Positions 1 to 7,458 of a stretch of 64,000 nucleotides of DNA are shown here, piece by piece (position 1 is the stretch's first letter; each line of letters starts with the position of its first letter). A model generated the notes under the pieces. It did not search any database and had not been told where the DNA came from. It saw only the letters and a list, made by a program, of their open reading frames with translations. Position numbers and translations under genes: made by a program. Source of the DNA: Caballeronia sp. NK8 (GTDB taxonomy: Bacteria > Pseudomonadota > Gammaproteobacteria > Burkholderiales > Burkholderiaceae); the NCBI RefSeq assembly GCF_018408855.1, contig NZ_AP024322.1:1612001-1676000 (forward strand), read 5' to 3'.

Positions 1-1430
1 CGCCGCCCGAACTGTTGTAGTCCGTTTCCTGCAACTCACGCCCGGTGCCTCCGTCGAAGATGATGTCCTGAGTCAGTTTTCCACTGGTATCGAACGACGC
101 CTGTTCCGTCTCGTGGCCGGCGCTGTTGTAGACGATCGCGTTCTGGGTGCCATTGATGTTCAGGATATGGTTGACCTGGCTGCCATCGGCGTTGATATCG
201 TTTTCTTGCGTTTCGCGGCCCGTGTTCGAATCGAAGAACACGTCTTGCGTCATCTTGCCATTCGTACCGAACGTAGCGTATTCAGTTTCGTGGCCACCTG
301 CGTTATAGACGATCGCGTTCTGTGTGCCGTTGGCGTTGAAGATGTGATCGATCTGACTACCGTCGGCGTTGAGGTCGTTCTCTTGTATCTCTCGGCCGGT
401 GTTCGAATCAAAGAAGACATCTTGTGTCATCTTGCCATTCGTGCCGATCGTGGCGTATTCGGTCTCGTGGCCAGCCGCGTCATAAACGGTCGCGTTCTGC
501 GTCCCGTTTGTGTTGAAAACATAGTCAACCTGACTACCGTCGGCATTGAGGTCGTTCTCTTGCGTTTCGCGCCCCGTGTTCGCGTCGAAGAAGACGTCCT
601 GCGTCATCTTGCCATTCGTGCCGTAGGTCGCGTACTCGGTCTCGTGGCCAGCCGTGTTGTAGACGATCGCGTTCTGCGTGCCGTTGGCGTTGAAGATGTG
701 ATCGATCTGACTGCCGTCGGCGTTGAGGTCGTTCTCTTGGGTTTCGCGACCCGTATTCGAATCGAAGAAGACGTCTTGCGTCATCTTGCCATTCGTGCCG
801 TATGTCGCGTACTCGGTCTCGTGGCCTGTCGAACTATAGAGGATCGCATTCTGCGTGCCATTGGCGTTGAAGATGTGATCGACTTCGCTCCCGTCCGCGT
901 TGATGTCGTTTTCCTGCATCTCGCGACCCGTGCCAGCGTCGTAGAAAAAGTCCTGGGTCAGTTTGCCGTCCACGCCATATGTCGCGTGTTCGGTCTCCTG
1001 GCCGGCGGCGTTATAGACGACTGCATTCTGTGAACCATCCGCATTGAGCAGATAGTCGGTCTGACTGCCATCCGGGTTGAAGTGATTTTCCTGCGTCTCG
1101 CGACCGGTAGTGGGGTCGAAGAATACGTCGAGCGTCTTCTTGCCGTCGACACCGAAGACGCCATATTCGGTTTCATGGCCGGCGGCATTGTAGACGGTTG
1201 CATTCTGCGAACCGTCTGCATTCAGCATGTAGTCGACCTGGCTGCCGTCAGCGTTGAAGTGATTCTCCTGGGTCTCGCGGCCGGTGGCGGCGTCGAAGAA
1301 CGCGTCCAGAGTCTTTTTGCCGTCGGTGCCAAAGGTGGCGTATTCGGTTTCATTACCCGACGTGTCGTAGGCGATGGCTGCCTGTGAGCCATCGACGTTG
1401 ATCTGGTAGGCGACTTCAGAACCGTCGGCG
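1..1430 (-). repeat. 177-bp in-frame tandem repeat array
   Basis: The same site (GCGTTCTG or a close variant) recurs at 138, 315, 492, 669, 846, 1023, 1200 and 1377, exactly 177 bp apart each time. This gives at least eight copies without indels. Each copy encodes 59 residues of the HEIGH-motif protein; a typical unit reads NADGSQIDHIFNANGTQNAI and continues with the GHETEY, GKMTQDVFFD and TGRETQEND blocks. The copies between about 140 and 850 are the most alike, while those nearest the peptidase domain (1200-1430) are more divergent. The array continues toward the left edge in altered form. Confidence 0.93.
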
Positions 1431-2350
1431 TGGAACTGATCTTCGCTGGTCAAGCGCCCTTGAGCATCGTAGATGTCTGCGTTGTAGCTGCCATCCGCTT
1501 GATGAGAGTAATTCGTTTGAGAAATGACGTTCCCGAACTGATCTCTCGTCGTGGAAGAACTGATCGTGCCGTTGTTAAAGTATTGCGAATCGGTCGAACC
1601 GTTCGCGTAATTCTCGGTCATCGAACTGAATTGCCCATCACCGTTGGGGTCGGAAAAGCTAACACTGGATGGCGGTGTTGGCGCCTGTGCAGTGGCTCCT
1701 CGCGACGAACCGTATACATCGTAGTACGGTTTATCGATTGCACTACCCTTTAACGTAGCGAAGATGCCCATTGCATCTTCGATCATCAGGTTCCGATCGA
1801 CGTCAGATTTCGCTCCGTCGGCGACGTCTTGCGAATGTTGTGCATCCAACAGGCCCTGAAGTCCGTCGCTGCTTCCATCGGGGTTATTTGCCCCAGCAAG
1901 ATAAATTTGCATCCCATTCGGATCGGTCTTCATGATCTCCTGCTGGACGATATAATTATTGTAGACCGCCTCACCTTCTCGATGGAGTCCGATCATAGCG
2001 TCGATGTTATAAGCATTTGGGTCGGAGACCGGTAGCTCTTGTTCGCTCTCGAACGCGAGATCTGCACTGAAATTGGTGAAGTGACCAATCTCATGCGCAA
2101 GCGTCCCTACTAGAACCGAATCCGACCAAGTTTGATAGTTGTTTGCAAAGATGATAGCGCCGCCATTGAATAAAATGCCACCATCCGAACCCACCTTCAT
2201 TGGGCTTGCCTTACCGTCTGAAATGGCGGTCTGATAGGCAAGAAGTTCAGAGACCAACGTTGAACTTTCGTTTATTAAAATCAATGCGTCAGCCGACAGC
2301 TTGACGTTGCCCCAGAAACTCTCATTTCCGGTTATAGTTTGAGTCGCCAT
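1..2350 (-). CDS. Putative type I secreted HEIGH-motif metallopeptidase with 59-residue tandem repeats (3' end outside window)
   Basis: An open frame on the minus strand begins at the ATG at 2350-2348 and runs without a stop to the left edge, giving at least 783 residues. The N-terminal ~220 residues form a non-repetitive domain with LAHEIGHF (HExxH at residues 86-90), the zinc-binding and catalytic motif of zincins. A downstream REGEAVYNN (about 124-132) could supply a third, glutamate ligand. A Ser/Gly/Asp-rich linker follows, then from about residue 305 an array of 59-residue repeats whose pattern (YNAAGHETEY, DGSQ, FFDSNTGRETQEND) resembles YD/RHS-type beta repeats. No N-terminal signal peptide is visible, as expected for a type I substrate whose export signal is C-terminal; that end is not in the window. 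The gene starts 10 bp after the lipoprotein gene, at the distal end of an operon encoding a complete type I exporter. Secretion and peptidase activity are inferred; no close family was recognised. Confidence 0.8.
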   Translation of the reverse strand, partial: MATQTITGNESFWGNVKLSADALILINESSTLVSELLAYQTAISDGKASPMKVGSDGGILFNGGAIIFANNYQTWSDSVLVGTLAHEIGHFTNFSADLAFESEQELPVSDPNAYNIDAMIGLHREGEAVYNNYIVQQEIMKTDPNGMQIYLAGANNPDGSSDGLQGLLDAQHSQDVADGAKSDVDRNLMIEDAMGIFATLKGSAIDKPYYDVYGSSRGATAQAPTPPSSVSFSDPNGDGQFSSMTENYANGSTDSQYFNNGTISSSTTRDQFGNVISQTNYSHQADGSYNADIYDAQGRLTSEDQFHADGSEVAYQINVDGSQAAIAYDTSGNETEYATFGTDGKKTLDAFFDAATGRETQENHFNADGSQVDYMLNADGSQNATVYNAAGHETEYGVFGVDGKKTLDVFFDPTTGRETQENHFNPDGSQTDYLLNADGSQNAVVYNAAGQETEHATYGVDGKLTQDFFYDAGTGREMQENDINADGSEVDHIFNANGTQNAILYSSTGHETEYATYGTNGKMTQDVFFDSNTGRETQENDLNADGSQIDHIFNANGTQNAIVYNTAGHETEYATYGTNGKMTQDVFFDANTGRETQENDLNADGSQVDYVFNTNGTQNATVYDAAGHETEYATIGTNGKMTQDVFFDSNTGREIQENDLNADGSQIDHIFNANGTQNAIVYNAGGHETEYATFGTNGKMTQDVFFDSNTGRETQENDINADGSQVNHILNINGTQNAIVYNSAGHETEQASFDTSGKLTQDIIFDGGTGRELQETDYNSSGG

Positions 2351-2360
2351 GATTATTCAC

Positions 2361-2939
2361 TCAGGTTGTTCGGTTCTGAAAAAGATAAAATGTTGCTGCG
2401 CAATTTGAATCTACAGTTTCATAGATGATATCTAACTCATAGTCCTGACCTCGTTTGAAAAAATACCGAAAACTTTTAATTTTTGCATGGGGATTTGGAA
2501 CAGGGGTTGAAAAACCGAAAACTTTGAACATCTTCGTTTGATCTATGCAACCCTTCGAGGTCATATTGTCTAGAGACAGCATTCCTCGAAACTTGTTACT
2601 TCCGCTCGCCCTGGAGATTCGGTAACGAAAATCTTTTGGCATCACAGAAAACCGTTCTGTTACGCTCTTATCGGTAAAAAACTCCGTGGCGTTACCCCGG
2701 TAATAATGCGTCTCCGGATCCGAAAGCGTTTCCAACGGCCCCGCCGTGATATTGATTCCAAGCCTTTGGGCCACGTACTTATAGTCATCGAGCTGACCGT
2801 GATCAACGATGTCACGGATCGCCGCCGCCAAGTCCTGATTGTCAGAGCTCGCTATTCCGGTGGACCCACATCCGAACAAAGCAACGATTAAACTGAAGCA
2901 ATACAACCAACGACGTTTCTTGATTAACAGCACGTACAT
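2361..2939 (-). CDS. Small lipoprotein between type I exporter and its presumed cargo
   Basis: The product is 192 residues. The N-terminus has basic residues (KKRR), a hydrophobic stretch and a lipobox ending LFGC with the lipidated Cys at residue 24, so it is probably a membrane-anchored periplasmic lipoprotein. The mature part contains two further cysteines (GCIDQ and NCAAT) that could form a disulfide, and a C-terminal half rich in beta-type alternation. A strong ribosome site (GGGAGGTG) precedes the ATG at 2939. It lies 39 bp after the HlyD gene and 10 bp before the HEIGH-motif gene, so it is cotranscribed with both. I recognise no family. By analogy with inhibitors encoded beside type I secreted proteases it could protect the producer or help load the cargo, but this is inference only. 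Confidence 0.82.
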   Translation of the reverse strand: MYVLLIKKRRWLYCFSLIVALFGCGSTGIASSDNQDLAAAIRDIVDHGQLDDYKYVAQRLGINITAGPLETLSDPETHYYRGNATEFFTDKSVTERFSVMPKDFRYRISRASGSNKFRGMLSLDNMTSKGCIDQTKMFKVFGFSTPVPNPHAKIKSFRYFFKRGQDYELDIIYETVDSNCAATFYLFQNRTT

Positions 2940-2978
2940 TCACCTCCCTAATTGAATCTGATCGCGTGCAGGTTCAAC

Positions 2979-4364
2979 TCAATCCCGCATCGACCTCTGA
3001 AGTCCATCCCTCACAGGTTCCAGCAAATAATCAAACGCGCTCCTCGTTCGTGTCTTGATGAAAACCTCCGCCCGCAACCCAGGCCCGAGCGCCACCGGTT
3101 CCTTCGCCAGCAGATTCGCCCGTGCAAGCGCCTGCGCCGAAATCTCCACGCGCGCCACATAAAACTGCTGATGATTGTCACGATCCGCCAACGAATCTGC
3201 GGAAAGATAAGCGACCTTGCCCTCAAGAACCGGCGACGTTCGCGGGTTGTACGCAGTCAGCCGCACATCGGCCGCGCTGCCGATCGCAATCTCGCGAACG
3301 TTATCGGGCTTGATCTTCGCCTCGACGATCAGCGGCGTTCCAGATGGCACAAGGTCGAGGATGGGGTCACGCGGACCGATTGCTTCGCCGATCGTGTGCA
3401 CCCTGAGGCCGACCACCTCTCCGGCCACCGGCGCGACAATGCGGGTTCGCGCATCCGTGTCCCGCGCGGGCCGCAACTGCTCCTCGATCTGTCCGGCCTT
3501 TTCCGTGCTTTCTTTAAGCTGAGTATCGGCCGATCGAACGTAGTCGTTGCGCAATGAAGCGATCTTGAGCGTGAGATCCGTTTGCCGCTGCCGCGATCGA
3601 ATCAGTTCAGCTGTGTCGGACTGCTGACGTGACTGATAGTCAGCGGCGGCGCGACGAAGCTCCATCATTTTCGTCTCCGTGACATAGCCCTCGCTTCGCA
3701 ATTGCTCGTTGACGTGCAATTCCTGCTTCGCGATGCCGAGGCTCTGTTCACTGGTGCTCACGAGCGCACGTTCTGCATCTGTTTCCTGCCGTGTTTGAGC
3801 GAGTTGCTGTTGCAGGAGCACGAATTGATCTTCAAATGCGCGACGTTCCGAATCGAACAGCGTGCGCTCGCGCTGCAACTGCGCAGCGACGGCCGGATCG
3901 GTCTGCCGTGCAAGCAGTCGCTGCGGAAATGCAATTGAGCTTTGCATGTCTCGCTCCGCGGCTAGGCGCGCCGCCTTCGCTTCTTCATCGTCCAGTTGCG
4001 CCTGCAGGGCGGTCATTTCCGCGTTGGGGCGCACATCATCGAGCATGGCGAGCGTCTGACCGGCCTTGACGCGGTCGCCATCTTTCACGAGGATCGCCCG
4101 GACGATGCCGCCTTCCTGATGTTGAATGGTCTTGCGCTCACCTTCGTCGCGGACCAGCCCTTCGGCCACGACGGCTCCGGACAGCGGCGCAAGCGCTGCC
4201 CATGCACCCATCGCACACGCGCCCACGAAGACCGAGAGGGACCCGAATGCAATCGCCCGGTGTGGCAAGCCGAGCCCTTGAACCGTATCGTCCGAACGCG
4301 TCACGTTCTGTCGGGCGAGGCGACGCATCGTCCGATACAACCTCATCACATTACGATTTTTCAT
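2979..4364 (-). CDS. Type I secretion periplasmic adaptor, HlyD/PrtE family
   Basis: This is the membrane fusion protein that links an inner-membrane ABC exporter to a TolC-type channel. The start at 4364 gives 461 residues, typical for the family, and forms an ATGA overlap with the ABC gene stop; a longer frame to 4463 exists but would run far into the ABC gene. One transmembrane segment lies at about residues 37-59. A biotinyl-lipoyl-like segment (about 60-110, with the DGDRVKAGQ motif), a long alpha-helical coiled coil and a C-terminal beta-barrel region with RIVAPVAGEV follow. Family assignment is firm from this layout; the cargo is inferred from the genes downstream. Confidence 0.95.
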   Translation of the reverse strand: MKNRNVMRLYRTMRRLARQNVTRSDDTVQGLGLPHRAIAFGSLSVFVGACAMGAWAALAPLSGAVVAEGLVRDEGERKTIQHQEGGIVRAILVKDGDRVKAGQTLAMLDDVRPNAEMTALQAQLDDEEAKAARLAAERDMQSSIAFPQRLLARQTDPAVAAQLQRERTLFDSERRAFEDQFVLLQQQLAQTRQETDAERALVSTSEQSLGIAKQELHVNEQLRSEGYVTETKMMELRRAAADYQSRQQSDTAELIRSRQRQTDLTLKIASLRNDYVRSADTQLKESTEKAGQIEEQLRPARDTDARTRIVAPVAGEVVGLRVHTIGEAIGPRDPILDLVPSGTPLIVEAKIKPDNVREIAIGSAADVRLTAYNPRTSPVLEGKVAYLSADSLADRDNHQQFYVARVEISAQALARANLLAKEPVALGPGLRAEVFIKTRTRSAFDYLLEPVRDGLQRSMRD

Positions 4365-6088
4365 GACGCTGGCGTCTCCTGCCGAGACTCGCGCGAAGCT
4401 GACGCGGCCGGCCTCATGCGTGATTGCATCCATCCTTGTACGTGTTCGCGCGTGCCGAAACAATCGATCTCGCCTGCGCGCATCACCATCACGCGATCTG
4501 CAAGCGCAAGCACGGTTTGACGATGCGTCACCACCACGACCGTCACACCGTCGCGCTTCAAGGCCTGTAACGCCATATTGAGTCGACGTTCACCTTCGAC
4601 ATCGAGGTTCGAATTCGGCTCGTCGAGAAGCACGAGACGCGGGTCGCCAAAGAGCGCGCGTGCGAAAGCGATCATTTGTCGCTGCCCGCCCGACAAGGCC
4701 AGCCCGGAATCAACGATTTGCGTCTGATATCCGTCTGGCAACGCGAGAATCATGTCGTGCACGCCCGCCCGCTTCGCCGCGAGGACGATGGCCGCCGATT
4801 CATGCCGTGACGCATCGGGATGGCGAGCGATATTGGCCGCTACACTTCCTCCAAACAACTCGACGTCCTGCGGCACGTAGCCAAGGTATCGACCGAGCGA
4901 CTCTCGCGGCCACTGGGCGATGTTCGCTCCATCCAGTCGAATCGCGCCCTCCCGCGGCGTCCAGACGCCCGCAAGCAGGCGCAGCAAGGTCGACTTGCCC
5001 GAAGCGCTTGGGCCGACGATCACCAGAAGTTGCCCCGCCGCGAGCGTGAACCGCACGTTTCCGAGCAACGCGCGCCCGCGCGGATCGCCGATCTCCCGGC
5101 TGCTGAAACTGGTGACATCGCTACTCAAATGACCCGCGGGACGGGGCAAAGCAATCGCCTGAGGCACGGGTGGCTGACGATACAGCTCATTGAGCCGGCT
5201 CCATGCTTGCCGCACTTCGGTCAGCTGTTTCCAGCTTCCGATGATCTGATCGATCGGTGCAAGGGCTTTGCCGAGCAGCAGCGTTGTCGCCATCATGACG
5301 CCGCCCGTTGCGAATTGATTGATGACGAGCCACGCGCCCGTTCCCATCATCACAACCTGAATCGCCTGCCGCGCGATCTTGCCAATATTTCGATTGAGCG
5401 CAGATGTGTCCGCAACCGATGTCTGAACGTCAACGTCGATGCGTCGACGCTCAGACCATGCGTCGATCATCGCCTTATTCATTCCGAGAACGGTCACGAT
5501 TTCGGCGTTCCTGTTGATCTGCGCGTAGAGCTGCTCGGTTTCCCTCTGCCGCGCAGTGTTGCTTCGAATGCTCGCCTCGGTCATGCGGTCGTTGGCAAAC
5601 GCAAGCCCGACCAGCACCACCGTGCTCGACATGGCGAGCAAACCCAATGACCAATGAAACAGAAACATGACGAAGAGATAGAACGCGAGCCACGGCAGAT
5701 CCATCAGGGCGATGACTCCGGCGCCCGACAGAAAGGAACGGACAGCCGCGATATCGGATGGGGTGGCCAGCGCATGCGCGGACGCGCGACGCGCTTGCAT
5801 CTCGACCCGCGCGGTTAGCGCAAGGCGATCGAGCCGGTCGCCGACCTGACGCGCGAGATGGCTCAGAATACGCGCGCGCACGACATCCACGCACAGCATC
5901 ATGCCCAACGCAATGCACATGAAAACGATCAGCATCACGAGTGTTTCGATGCTCCGGCTGGGCAGCACGCGATCGTAGACCTGCAACATGTAGAGCGTGG
6001 GCGCGAGCACAAGGAGATTGCTGGCGACACCGAACGACGCGGCGATCACAAGATGTCGCCTGATCGCGTGCAAAATGGATCCGTTCAT
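4361..6088 (-). CDS. Type I secretion ABC transporter/ATPase, PrtD-type
   Basis: The 575-residue protein has an N-terminal membrane domain with hydrophobic segments between about residues 15 and 290, then a nucleotide-binding domain. Visible motifs are Walker A GPSASGKST (359-367), signature LSGGQ (465-469) and Walker B LVLLDE (485-490), followed by an H-loop in VVVVTHR. There is no N-terminal C39 peptidase or C39-like domain, which places it with PrtD/HasD/LipB-type exporters that move RTX proteases, lipases and hemophores having uncleaved C-terminal signals. It overlaps the TolC gene (ATGA at 6088-6085) and the HlyD gene (4364-4361), implying translational coupling. Confidence 0.96.
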   Translation of the reverse strand: MNGSILHAIRRHLVIAASFGVASNLLVLAPTLYMLQVYDRVLPSRSIETLVMLIVFMCIALGMMLCVDVVRARILSHLARQVGDRLDRLALTARVEMQARRASAHALATPSDIAAVRSFLSGAGVIALMDLPWLAFYLFVMFLFHWSLGLLAMSSTVVLVGLAFANDRMTEASIRSNTARQRETEQLYAQINRNAEIVTVLGMNKAMIDAWSERRRIDVDVQTSVADTSALNRNIGKIARQAIQVVMMGTGAWLVINQFATGGVMMATTLLLGKALAPIDQIIGSWKQLTEVRQAWSRLNELYRQPPVPQAIALPRPAGHLSSDVTSFSSREIGDPRGRALLGNVRFTLAAGQLLVIVGPSASGKSTLLRLLAGVWTPREGAIRLDGANIAQWPRESLGRYLGYVPQDVELFGGSVAANIARHPDASRHESAAIVLAAKRAGVHDMILALPDGYQTQIVDSGLALSGGQRQMIAFARALFGDPRLVLLDEPNSNLDVEGERRLNMALQALKRDGVTVVVVTHRQTVLALADRVMVMRAGEIDCFGTREHVQGWMQSRMRPAASASRESRQETPAS

Positions 6089-7458
6089 TTCTGTTGCGCT
6101 TCCGAATGGTTCACCGCAGCACCGATGAGGCCTTCGAGTGTCGTCTCGTCCAGTTGAGCGACGCTCGCCCGCAAGCGCAGAAACTGCATCACGGCGTCGT
6201 ATCGAGCCTTCGCCAGATCACGCCGCGTCGTGAAGAGCTTCTCCGCCGCGCTGAGCACATCAGCGTTGATACGCACACCCGCCTTGAACCCTTTCTGATT
6301 CGATTTGAGCGACGTTTCCGCCGACAGCTGGGCCGTACGCAGCGCGGCGATTTGCGCGACGCTTTCCTGCAGCGCGAGATACGACTCGCGCGCGTCGAGG
6401 GCAGCCGAACGGCGCGCATCTTCGAGATCGCTCTGGGCCTTATCTTGCAATGCGAGTGCTTCGGCTTTCCTGCTCGACGTCTGTAGCCCATCGAATAATG
6501 GAATGCTTATCTGGATGCCGATTTCGCCCGAGCTTGCCCGGTTGGCGCCCGTGTAGAAGTTGGTCTGGCCGTTGATGAAAGCGGCATTCCCGTGGTTCAC
6601 GTTGCCGACGATCGATACACTCGGCAGGTAGCCCGCGTCCACCTTGCTGACCTCGCGCCTTGCGATTTCGAGCGCTATCTCCTGCTGCCTCACGTCGAAA
6701 GACTCGCGTGCTGCGGTATCCGCCCAATGATCGGCGCTATCCGCCCCGATCGCGGGCGCGCTCAGGTCTGGAACAAGGGCATCGACGTTCGTGACCGGAT
6801 GCGCCACGATCTTCTCGATCGCCGCATAGCACCTCAATACCTCCGCGTTCGCATGCACGAGATCCGATCGCGCCGCGTCCGCACCGGCTTGCGCTTCGTT
6901 CAGGTCGACGATCGTGGCGGCGCCGAGACTGAAACCGCGCTGGCTGATGGCCAGTTGTTCGTCGAGCGTGCGGACATGCTCATGCGCGAGGGCACGTTGG
7001 TCTTGCGCGGCGAGCGCGTCCAGATAGGCCTGGGTGGCGCGCAGAAGCAGATCCTGCCGTGCCGCCGCAAGCCCGAAGCCGGCGGCTATCGCACCGAGCT
7101 TGCCTTCCTGATAAGACTGCCAGTCATCCCACTTGAAAACGGCTTGATTGAGCGACAGGCTCGTGCCCAGTGTCGAATAAGATTCGGCAGGCTTGCCCGG
7201 AACAAAAATTCCGTTGCGGAAGACGGACTGACTCAGTTCCAGATGAGGTAATAACGCCGCTCTTGCTTCCGGCTCTTTCTGTATCGCCGCGCGAAACTGC
7301 GCTTCGGCGCTCGCGAATCGGGCGTCATGCTGTGCAGCTTCCTGCAAAACCTCGGATAGGCTTTCGGCCGAACAAGGTTGTGCTGTCAGCATCATCTGTA
7401 GTCCTGATATAAACACAAGGCACTTGACGCAAAGCGCTCCAACTATTGTTCGTTTCAT
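6085..7458 (-). CDS. Type I secretion outer membrane channel, TolC family
   Basis: The 457-residue product starts with a signal peptide (MKRTIVGALCVKCLVFISGL, cleavage probably after CSA near residue 31) and carries the paired helical repeats of the TolC/OEP family. One repeat reads SLNQAVFKWDDWQSYQEGKL and the matching one IQISIPLFDGLQTSSRK. It is the first gene of the secretion operon, so this locus supplies its own outer membrane channel. The ATG at 7458 has an AAAGGG just upstream, at unusually short spacing; the downstream in-frame ATG codons inside the signal peptide are less likely starts. Confidence 0.94.
   Translation of the reverse strand: MKRTIVGALCVKCLVFISGLQMMLTAQPCSAESLSEVLQEAAQHDARFASAEAQFRAAIQKEPEARAALLPHLELSQSVFRNGIFVPGKPAESYSTLGTSLSLNQAVFKWDDWQSYQEGKLGAIAAGFGLAAARQDLLLRATQAYLDALAAQDQRALAHEHVRTLDEQLAISQRGFSLGAATIVDLNEAQAGADAARSDLVHANAEVLRCYAAIEKIVAHPVTNVDALVPDLSAPAIGADSADHWADTAARESFDVRQQEIALEIARREVSKVDAGYLPSVSIVGNVNHGNAAFINGQTNFYTGANRASSGEIGIQISIPLFDGLQTSSRKAEALALQDKAQSDLEDARRSAALDARESYLALQESVAQIAALRTAQLSAETSLKSNQKGFKAGVRINADVLSAAEKLFTTRRDLAKARYDAVMQFLRLRASVAQLDETTLEGLIGAAVNHSEAQQK

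Follow-up and report, generated by a model that had tools for sequence, protein, structure and literature searches.

Polymorphic toxins have mainly been described as C-terminal toxin domains for which type V, VI and VII secretion, together with related routes, provides delivery. The contact-dependent inhibition (CDI) and Rhs systems combine a conserved, repeat-bearing carrier with a replaceable toxin and an adjacent immunity gene, and they are accompanied by orphan modules. Here we describe an operon of Caballeronia sp. NK8 that resembles them in these respects, and which we interpret, with a probability of about 0.65, as a self-contained antibacterial system of the polymorphic-toxin kind, with a type I exporter of the PrtD type. 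The operon occupies positions 1–7458, on the minus strand, of a stretch of 64,000 nucleotides (the window) that spans positions 1,612,001–1,676,000 of contig NZ_AP024322.1 in a 9.2 Mb genome. It consists of five genes on one strand: tolC, a PrtD-type ABC gene, hlyD, the gene for a small lipoprotein, and a cargo gene that encodes a repeat protein with an HEIGH motif near its N-terminus. The variable toxin domain of CDI and Rhs proteins is C-terminal (PMC3482391), whereas the putative toxin domain of the NK8 cargo is at the N-terminus, the position that a C-terminal type I secretion signal would require, and its partner gene is found upstream.

Several described systems come close to this one, and they are characterised here from portions of the cited reports. 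A 2012 survey of polymorphic toxins mentions type I export for large RTX toxins (PMC3482391). In Neisseria meningitidis, the type I cargo FrpC, an RTX protein, has a variable N-terminal domain that is bound by FrpD, a lipoprotein of the same operon, which is the arrangement we propose for NK8. FrpC-like proteins vary considerably in this domain of ~350 amino acids, possibly as a result of immune pressure (PMC5472700), and FrpC has been hypothesised to be a type I antibacterial effector with FrpD as its immunity protein (PMC6759196). The NK8 operon differs from this pair in that its cargo lacks RTX repeats and has YD-like repeats, its exporter is of the PrtD type, its N-terminal domain carries HEIGH and is predicted to be zincin-like, and a profile of its lipoprotein has no match in the PDB by sequence at E up to 10. 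In Stenotrophomonas maltophilia, experiments have shown that Smlt3025 (PDB 6PDK) neutralises Smlt3024, a periplasm-acting effector of a type IV secretion system with homology to N-terminal parts of RTX proteins (PMC6759196). The likeness lies in the neutralisation of periplasmic toxicity by a lipoprotein, and orfY, the partner gene of a different N-terminal class (QYAG), weakly matches 6PDK. Delivery differs, however, and the pair is a precedent at most for QYAG and orfY, with nothing that links it to the HEIGH domain and its lipoprotein. The Cdz system of Caulobacter crescentus is also an antibacterial type I system with a dedicated inner-membrane immunity protein, CdzI, which has three predicted transmembrane segments (PMC5380434). 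Unlike the operon described here, it is built on two small glycine-zipper proteins (86 and 84 amino acids), and the portions of the report covered describe neither a large repeat carrier nor swapping.

Serralysin operons (PrtA, Inh, PrtDEF) likewise join a PrtD-type exporter to a metallopeptidase. They include a small envelope inhibitor gene, Inh, and serralysins themselves are RTX metzincins with an HExxHxxGxxH motif. In contrast, the N-terminal domain of the NK8 cargo is neither RTX nor a metzincin of the HExxHxxGxxH type. A preliminary description of this DNA, made from the sequence alone, had proposed that a dedicated exporter and a peptidase–repeat fusion cargo might form an undescribed exoprotein system. 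The dedicated exporter is real, and so is a cargo in which a zincin-like domain is fused to repeats, but ‘undescribed’ was too strong a word, as FrpC/FrpD and Smlt3024/Smlt3025 are close precedents. Searches of a collection of open-access papers listed none whose title or abstract reports N-terminal swapping in a polymorphic family exported by type I secretion.

Exchange of N-terminal domains and partner genes

A search of 5.8 billion proteins, in which 7993 candidates were scored, yielded 71 homologues of the cargo (P0001), and their named hosts are mostly Caballeronia, Paraburkholderia, Burkholderia and Bradyrhizobium. The nearest is P0002 from Caballeronia sp. S22, at 87% identity; by region, identity to S22 is 70% for the lipoprotein, 81% for the N-terminal domain, 87% for the middle and 92% for the C-terminus. 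An aromatic C-terminal tail is common to 30 of the 72 proteins (query and homologues), and the N-terminal domains of these 30 fall into classes that we call HEIGH (19 proteins), SVAG (6), QYAG (4) and YELGH (1). In this respect the family resembles polymorphic toxins, in which the carrier is conserved and the domain at the toxin end varies.

Six protein pairs were compared for N-terminal and C-terminal similarity, with the last 250 amino acids taken as the C-terminus. Four of them have closely similar C-termini and no N-terminal match at E 1e-3: P0006/P0021 (98.4% identity), P0007/P0020 (94.4%), P0011/P0027 (94.4%) and P0008/P0014 (87.6%). The other two pairs, whose N-termini belong to the same or a sister class, are P0010/P0013 (93% at the C-terminus, 32% at the N-terminus) and P0003/P0002 (98% and 40%).

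Replacement of a cassette, consisting of the small gene and the N-terminal domain, is clearest in one genome pair, L021 (P. ribeironis) and L039/L095 (genome G145). The tolC–ABC–hlyD segments are 84.1% identical at the DNA level over 4583 bp, similarity is lost between the end of hlyD and approximately cargo residue 318, and identity is then 78% through the repeats and tail. The downstream flank is common to both (79–83%); a neighbouring gene with 86% identity is found downstream in L021 but upstream in L039, and within the stretches compared the upstream side is otherwise not common. The replaced piece encodes the lipoprotein and a HEIGH domain in L021, and a membrane protein of 108 amino acids and an SVAG domain in L039/L095. 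In the window, G+C content is 44.7% in the lipoprotein gene and 49.5% in the N-terminal domain, against 60–61% in the exporter genes and 62.7% overall. The same holds for 10 of 10 other operons measured, where the small gene has 39–48% G+C and the ABC gene 57–64%. On a conjugative plasmid of Cupriavidus taiwanensis (L024:7231-14523) and at L067, the same lipoprotein family and a HEIGH domain precede an LssB-type exporter, which means that the cassette occurs with exporters of two types. The L024 locus includes a protein annotated as hemolysin.

Judged by location and pairing, the adjacent partner gene appears to be specific for the variable domain. In NK8, this gene (2361–2939, minus strand) ends 10 bp upstream of the cargo gene and encodes a predicted immunity or inhibitor protein for the HEIGH domain, a small lipoprotein with a lipobox (Cys24) and two invariant cysteines (131 and 180). 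Small-gene and N-domain profiles were run on the open reading frames of 35 loci and then of 8 more. The lipoprotein family lies upstream in 18 of 26 HEIGH-type loci, although in L020 another small gene intervenes. A type I ABC gene is present in 17 of these 18 (the exception, L077, is a contig end) and in none of the eight loci that lack the lipoprotein, an ABC gene having been sought at L130, L131, L132 and L135 in the displayed 8 kb only. Among the first 35 loci, the lipoprotein occurs in 17 of 21 HEIGH-type loci and in none of the 14 others (Fisher test, p 1.6e-6, which is indicative only, because the loci are not independent lineages). The lipoprotein profile was built from 12 training sequences, and outside this set it recovered 10 of the first 35 loci and, among the 8 further ones, L136; the sequence at L067 is the same as one used in training. 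To control for specificity, the profile was run on 144 genomes, with at most 22 candidates scored per genome, and gave 10 matches in 8 genomes, 5 of which apparently hold training sequences; all 10 lie no more than 2 kb from an N-domain match. Conversely, the N-domain was matched in 17 genomes, and in 9 of these the lipoprotein was not; several of the 9 carry YELGH-class or stand-alone proteins.

Other N-terminal classes have other partners. Six of eight YELGH-type loci have a different small gene that is distantly related to the lipoprotein, and three of these six (L133, L134 and L137) are outside its training set. SVAG domains are accompanied in 2/2 loci by a membrane protein of 108–113 amino acids with three or more hydrophobic segments, and a further class (L043, L076) by an exported protein of 262 amino acids, also in 2/2 loci, both profiles having been trained on the same loci. 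Several interchangeable N-termini exist where the preliminary description had seen one unfamiliar domain, and the lipoprotein that it had listed without further comment is the key partner, a candidate cognate immunity protein that changes along with this domain.

The QYAG class bears on this pairing in a different way. At L020, a HEIGH cargo locus with extra small genes, orfX and orfY were named as possible QYAG partners before any QYAG locus had been examined. The cargo of L020 is P0006, whose C-terminus is 98.4% identical to that of the QYAG protein P0021. A search with the N-terminal domain of P0021 then found QYAG loci in 5 of 144 genomes, and orfY, an FrpD/Smlt3025-like lipoprotein gene, is directly upstream in 5/5, as judged with a profile trained on the same loci. 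The similarity of the orfY profile to 6PDK (Smlt3025) is weak (E 0.0066 over 43 residues). At L090, the protein with the QYAG domain also contains a self-processing module of the FrpC type (matching PDB 6sjw at E 1.6e-37) and RTX repeats. The candidacy of orfX was not borne out; three relatives (L102-L104) have no recognised cargo beside them, and orfX lipoproteins are found beside cargo operons at L020:9233-9859, L023:8772-9275 and L023:11391-11969.

Displaced, orphan toxin and immunity modules, a further mark of polymorphic toxins, are present at several loci. There are three copies of orfY each in L090 and L091 and two in L020. L090 has a truncated QYAG module of 140 amino acids with orfY, L023 has an orphan copy of the SVAG-partner membrane gene, and L076 has a truncated HEIGH module and pieces of the lipoprotein upstream of its present cassette.

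Exporter and carrier

The exporter is encoded by three genes, all on the minus strand. These specify a TolC-family outer-membrane channel (6085–7458; PF02321, and TIGR01844 at 232.9 bits, cut-off 225.15), a PrtD-type type I secretion permease/ATPase (4361–6088; TIGR01842 at 588.6 bits, cut-off 510.15) and an HlyD-type membrane-fusion protein (2979–4364; TIGR01843 at 337.5 bits, cut-off 208.65). ATGA overlaps occur at both the TolC/ABC and the ABC/HlyD junction, and the ATG start of HlyD is taken from the latter; the program-made list of open reading frames has a TTG start at 4463. The preliminary description had read the locus as five same-strand genes in one unit with ATGA overlaps and a PrtD-type exporter. 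The coordinates of the reading frames agree with this layout, and as all three proteins exceed curated NCBIfam cut-offs, the exporter can be assigned to the PrtD-type type I systems. Its position in the operon and the conserved tail of the cargo suggest that it secretes the cargo. In the P. antibiotica operon, the ABC gene (L022:5581-7300) is split by an apparent frameshift, which may be real or a sequencing error.

Positions 1–2350 (minus strand) hold the first 783 of the 1013 residues of the cargo, the full gene being L002:13309-16350, minus strand. The stop codon lies 690 nt to the left of the window edge, and the giant repeat protein envisaged in the preliminary description is thereby ruled out. 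That description had also proposed to extend the sequence leftward, counting a stop just past the edge against the system. Such a stop was found, but it does not truncate the protein: the last ~90 residues are conserved in relatives, and the cargo therefore looks intact. In order, the cargo comprises the N-terminal domain (residues 1–225), a linker, seven units of 59 residues (residues 334–746; 113–1351, minus strand), imperfect copies of these units, and a tail that ends in GFSW.

The seven units are the YD-like 59-residue repeats noticed earlier, here termed YD/DGS-type. They match PF12904, PF18807 and PF11178 above cut-off, with no match to PF05593, and the relative P0024 scores 35.6 bits against TIGR01643 (cut-off 15.8). 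The absence of GGxGxDxxx repeats, reported earlier for the window, extends to the complete protein: the count of GGxGxD in P0001 is zero, and PF00353 gives no match at E up to 1. Nor does PF00413 match at E up to 1, and the motif reads HEIGHFTNFSA rather than HExxHxxGxxH. On these grounds, the cargo is neither an RTX protein nor an M10 protease. A type I signal at the C-terminus, which the preliminary description had left in question, is thus absent in its classical RTX form, but a conserved non-RTX tail is present. A PDB sequence search with P0001 gave no match at E up to 1, and the 60 listed of the 119 PDB matches of alignment A2 fall in the matrixin and repeat parts of other rows, none in the N-terminal domain. 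PADLOC returned for P0001 only a weak match, to capP (E 0.0089).

The aromatic tail is rare in whole genomes. Within the genus of the window, the last 193 residues of the cargo are matched in 4 of 58 genomes, at full length only in the window's own genome. A shorter tail query was matched in 5 of 398 genomes of a family sample and in 10 of the 144 genomes from the genus to which G145 belongs (presumed to be Paraburkholderia). A search of genome contigs gave no match with P0001 alone, and five loci with alignment A1.

Some relatives depart from this plan. P0035, P0043, P0044, P0045, P0046 and L026:6917-11293 have HExxH twice, once in the N-terminal part and again in a matrixin-like region at the C-terminus, where it stands in place of the aromatic tail; in P0035 this C-terminus matches PF00413. 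In the distant repeat relatives P0055 (Xanthobacter) and P0059 (Bradyrhizobium), the N-terminus reads by eye like a glycoside hydrolase, with no family match seen, and is possibly another kind of N-terminal cargo. Residues 1–230 of P0031, whose record has no tail, are a further unrelated domain before the same repeats, perhaps papain-like.

The HEIGH domain

The swappable N-terminal domain of the NK8 cargo (1676–2350, minus strand) is the predicted toxin. Its HEIGH motif was placed at residues 86–90 in the preliminary description, and this position (2081–2095, minus strand) holds in the complete protein. An AlphaFold model of residues 1–225 has a pLDDT (predicted local distance difference test) of 93.5. 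In this confidently predicted, zincin-like domain, HEIGH lies on a helix, and conserved glutamates follow downstream. Structure comparison of this model (VIA-align) listed mostly HExxH zincins, judged by title; fold families absent from these results carry no evidential weight. HExxH was the criterion by which 35 homologues were selected, and accordingly all 35 have it; among these E125 is kept in 33 and E127 in 30. Such retention would be expected of a third ligand of the gluzincin type, and the domain is a candidate metallopeptidase toxin that would act in the envelope. Catalysis throughout the family is rejected, because YELGH forms occur.

Eight loci (L068, L075, L079, L080, L130, L131, L132 and L135) encode HEIGH-domain proteins with neither the lipoprotein nor a type I exporter in view, which indicates that the domain has other users. 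Some of these stand-alone proteins have a low-complexity C-terminus, and the neighbours of the L130 gene resemble, by eye, type VI secretion genes. The eight may be effectors of another system that is aimed at non-bacterial targets.

Alternative explanations and significance

Antagonism is the best supported of the three roles put forward in the preliminary description, the others being adhesion and matrix degradation. An adhesin with a tether is improbable. Its N-terminal domain would be a binding domain, and the lipoprotein would keep it on the surface of the producer, as proposed for FrpC and FrpD in Neisseria, and variation would reflect receptor or immune selection. FrpC and FrpD are indeed encoded in one operon, and a tether, too, would be expected to follow its N-terminal domain. 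The SVAG partner, however, is probably an inner-membrane protein and therefore no surface tether, several orphan copies accumulate, and Smlt3025, a relative of one partner family, has been shown to be an immunity protein (PMC6759196).

Somewhat less probable again is an ordinary exoprotease that is secreted to serve nutrition or interaction with a host, in which case the lipoprotein would be a self-protecting inhibitor comparable to Inh. PrtD-type exporters carry proteases, the modelled zincin-like fold would suit such a function, and related cargos have C-terminal matrixin domains. Yet one carrier bears unrelated N-terminal domains with which the partner changes, and the inhibitor of a housekeeping protease is not expected to leave orphan arrays. 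The least probable of these alternatives is that the HEIGH domain is no peptidase, but uses a metal for another reaction or is a pseudo-enzyme, any toxicity arising from binding; the retention of E125 and E127 in most HEIGH-selected homologues argues against it.

A polymorphic antibacterial toxin system is supported by the operon itself, by domain swapping, by cassette replacement in one genome pair, by N-domain-specific pairing, and by the orphan partner genes. Two observations on the QYAG loci weigh against a simple form of this account. A type I ABC gene lies in the fetched stretch at only one of the five (L090), which lowers our confidence slightly, and the aromatic tail is found in none of the five, the proteins of L090 and L091 being RTX proteins.

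In the toxin system that we propose, the conserved repeats and aromatic tail would serve as a carrier for export and display, and the N-terminal 225 residues as an interchangeable toxin domain, here probably a zinc-dependent, zincin-like metallopeptidase. The probable target of this domain in neighbouring cells would lie outside their cytoplasm and could be an envelope protein or peptidoglycan. Action in the envelope is suggested by the lipobox and the two invariant cysteines of the lipoprotein and by the hydrophobic segments of the SVAG partner. The lipoprotein, as the putative cognate immunity protein of the HEIGH domain, would block the toxin in the producer's envelope before or after export. 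New specificities would arise when the cassette of immunity gene and N-terminal domain is replaced between hlyD and the repeat region.

A broader proposal, which we consider evenly balanced, is that type I secretion serves in general to deliver polymorphic antibacterial toxins whose polarity is reversed. In these, an N-terminal toxin and its upstream immunity gene would move as a cassette from carrier to carrier (YD-like repeats with an aromatic tail, RTX, or a matrixin tail) and also between PrtD-type and LssB-type exporters. HEIGH would then be a new class of zincin toxin with a new family of lipoprotein immunity proteins, and the variable N-termini of FrpC-like proteins would be the same phenomenon. 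If so, type I secretion of N-terminal cassettes would be a further means of delivery for polymorphic toxins, and it would suggest functions for many exoproteins annotated as ‘hypothetical’, ‘matrixin’ or ‘RTX’, and for the small genes upstream of them. The question of what FrpC and FrpD do would be affected as well, and the HEIGH domain and its lipoprotein would supply a candidate zincin toxin and immunity family.

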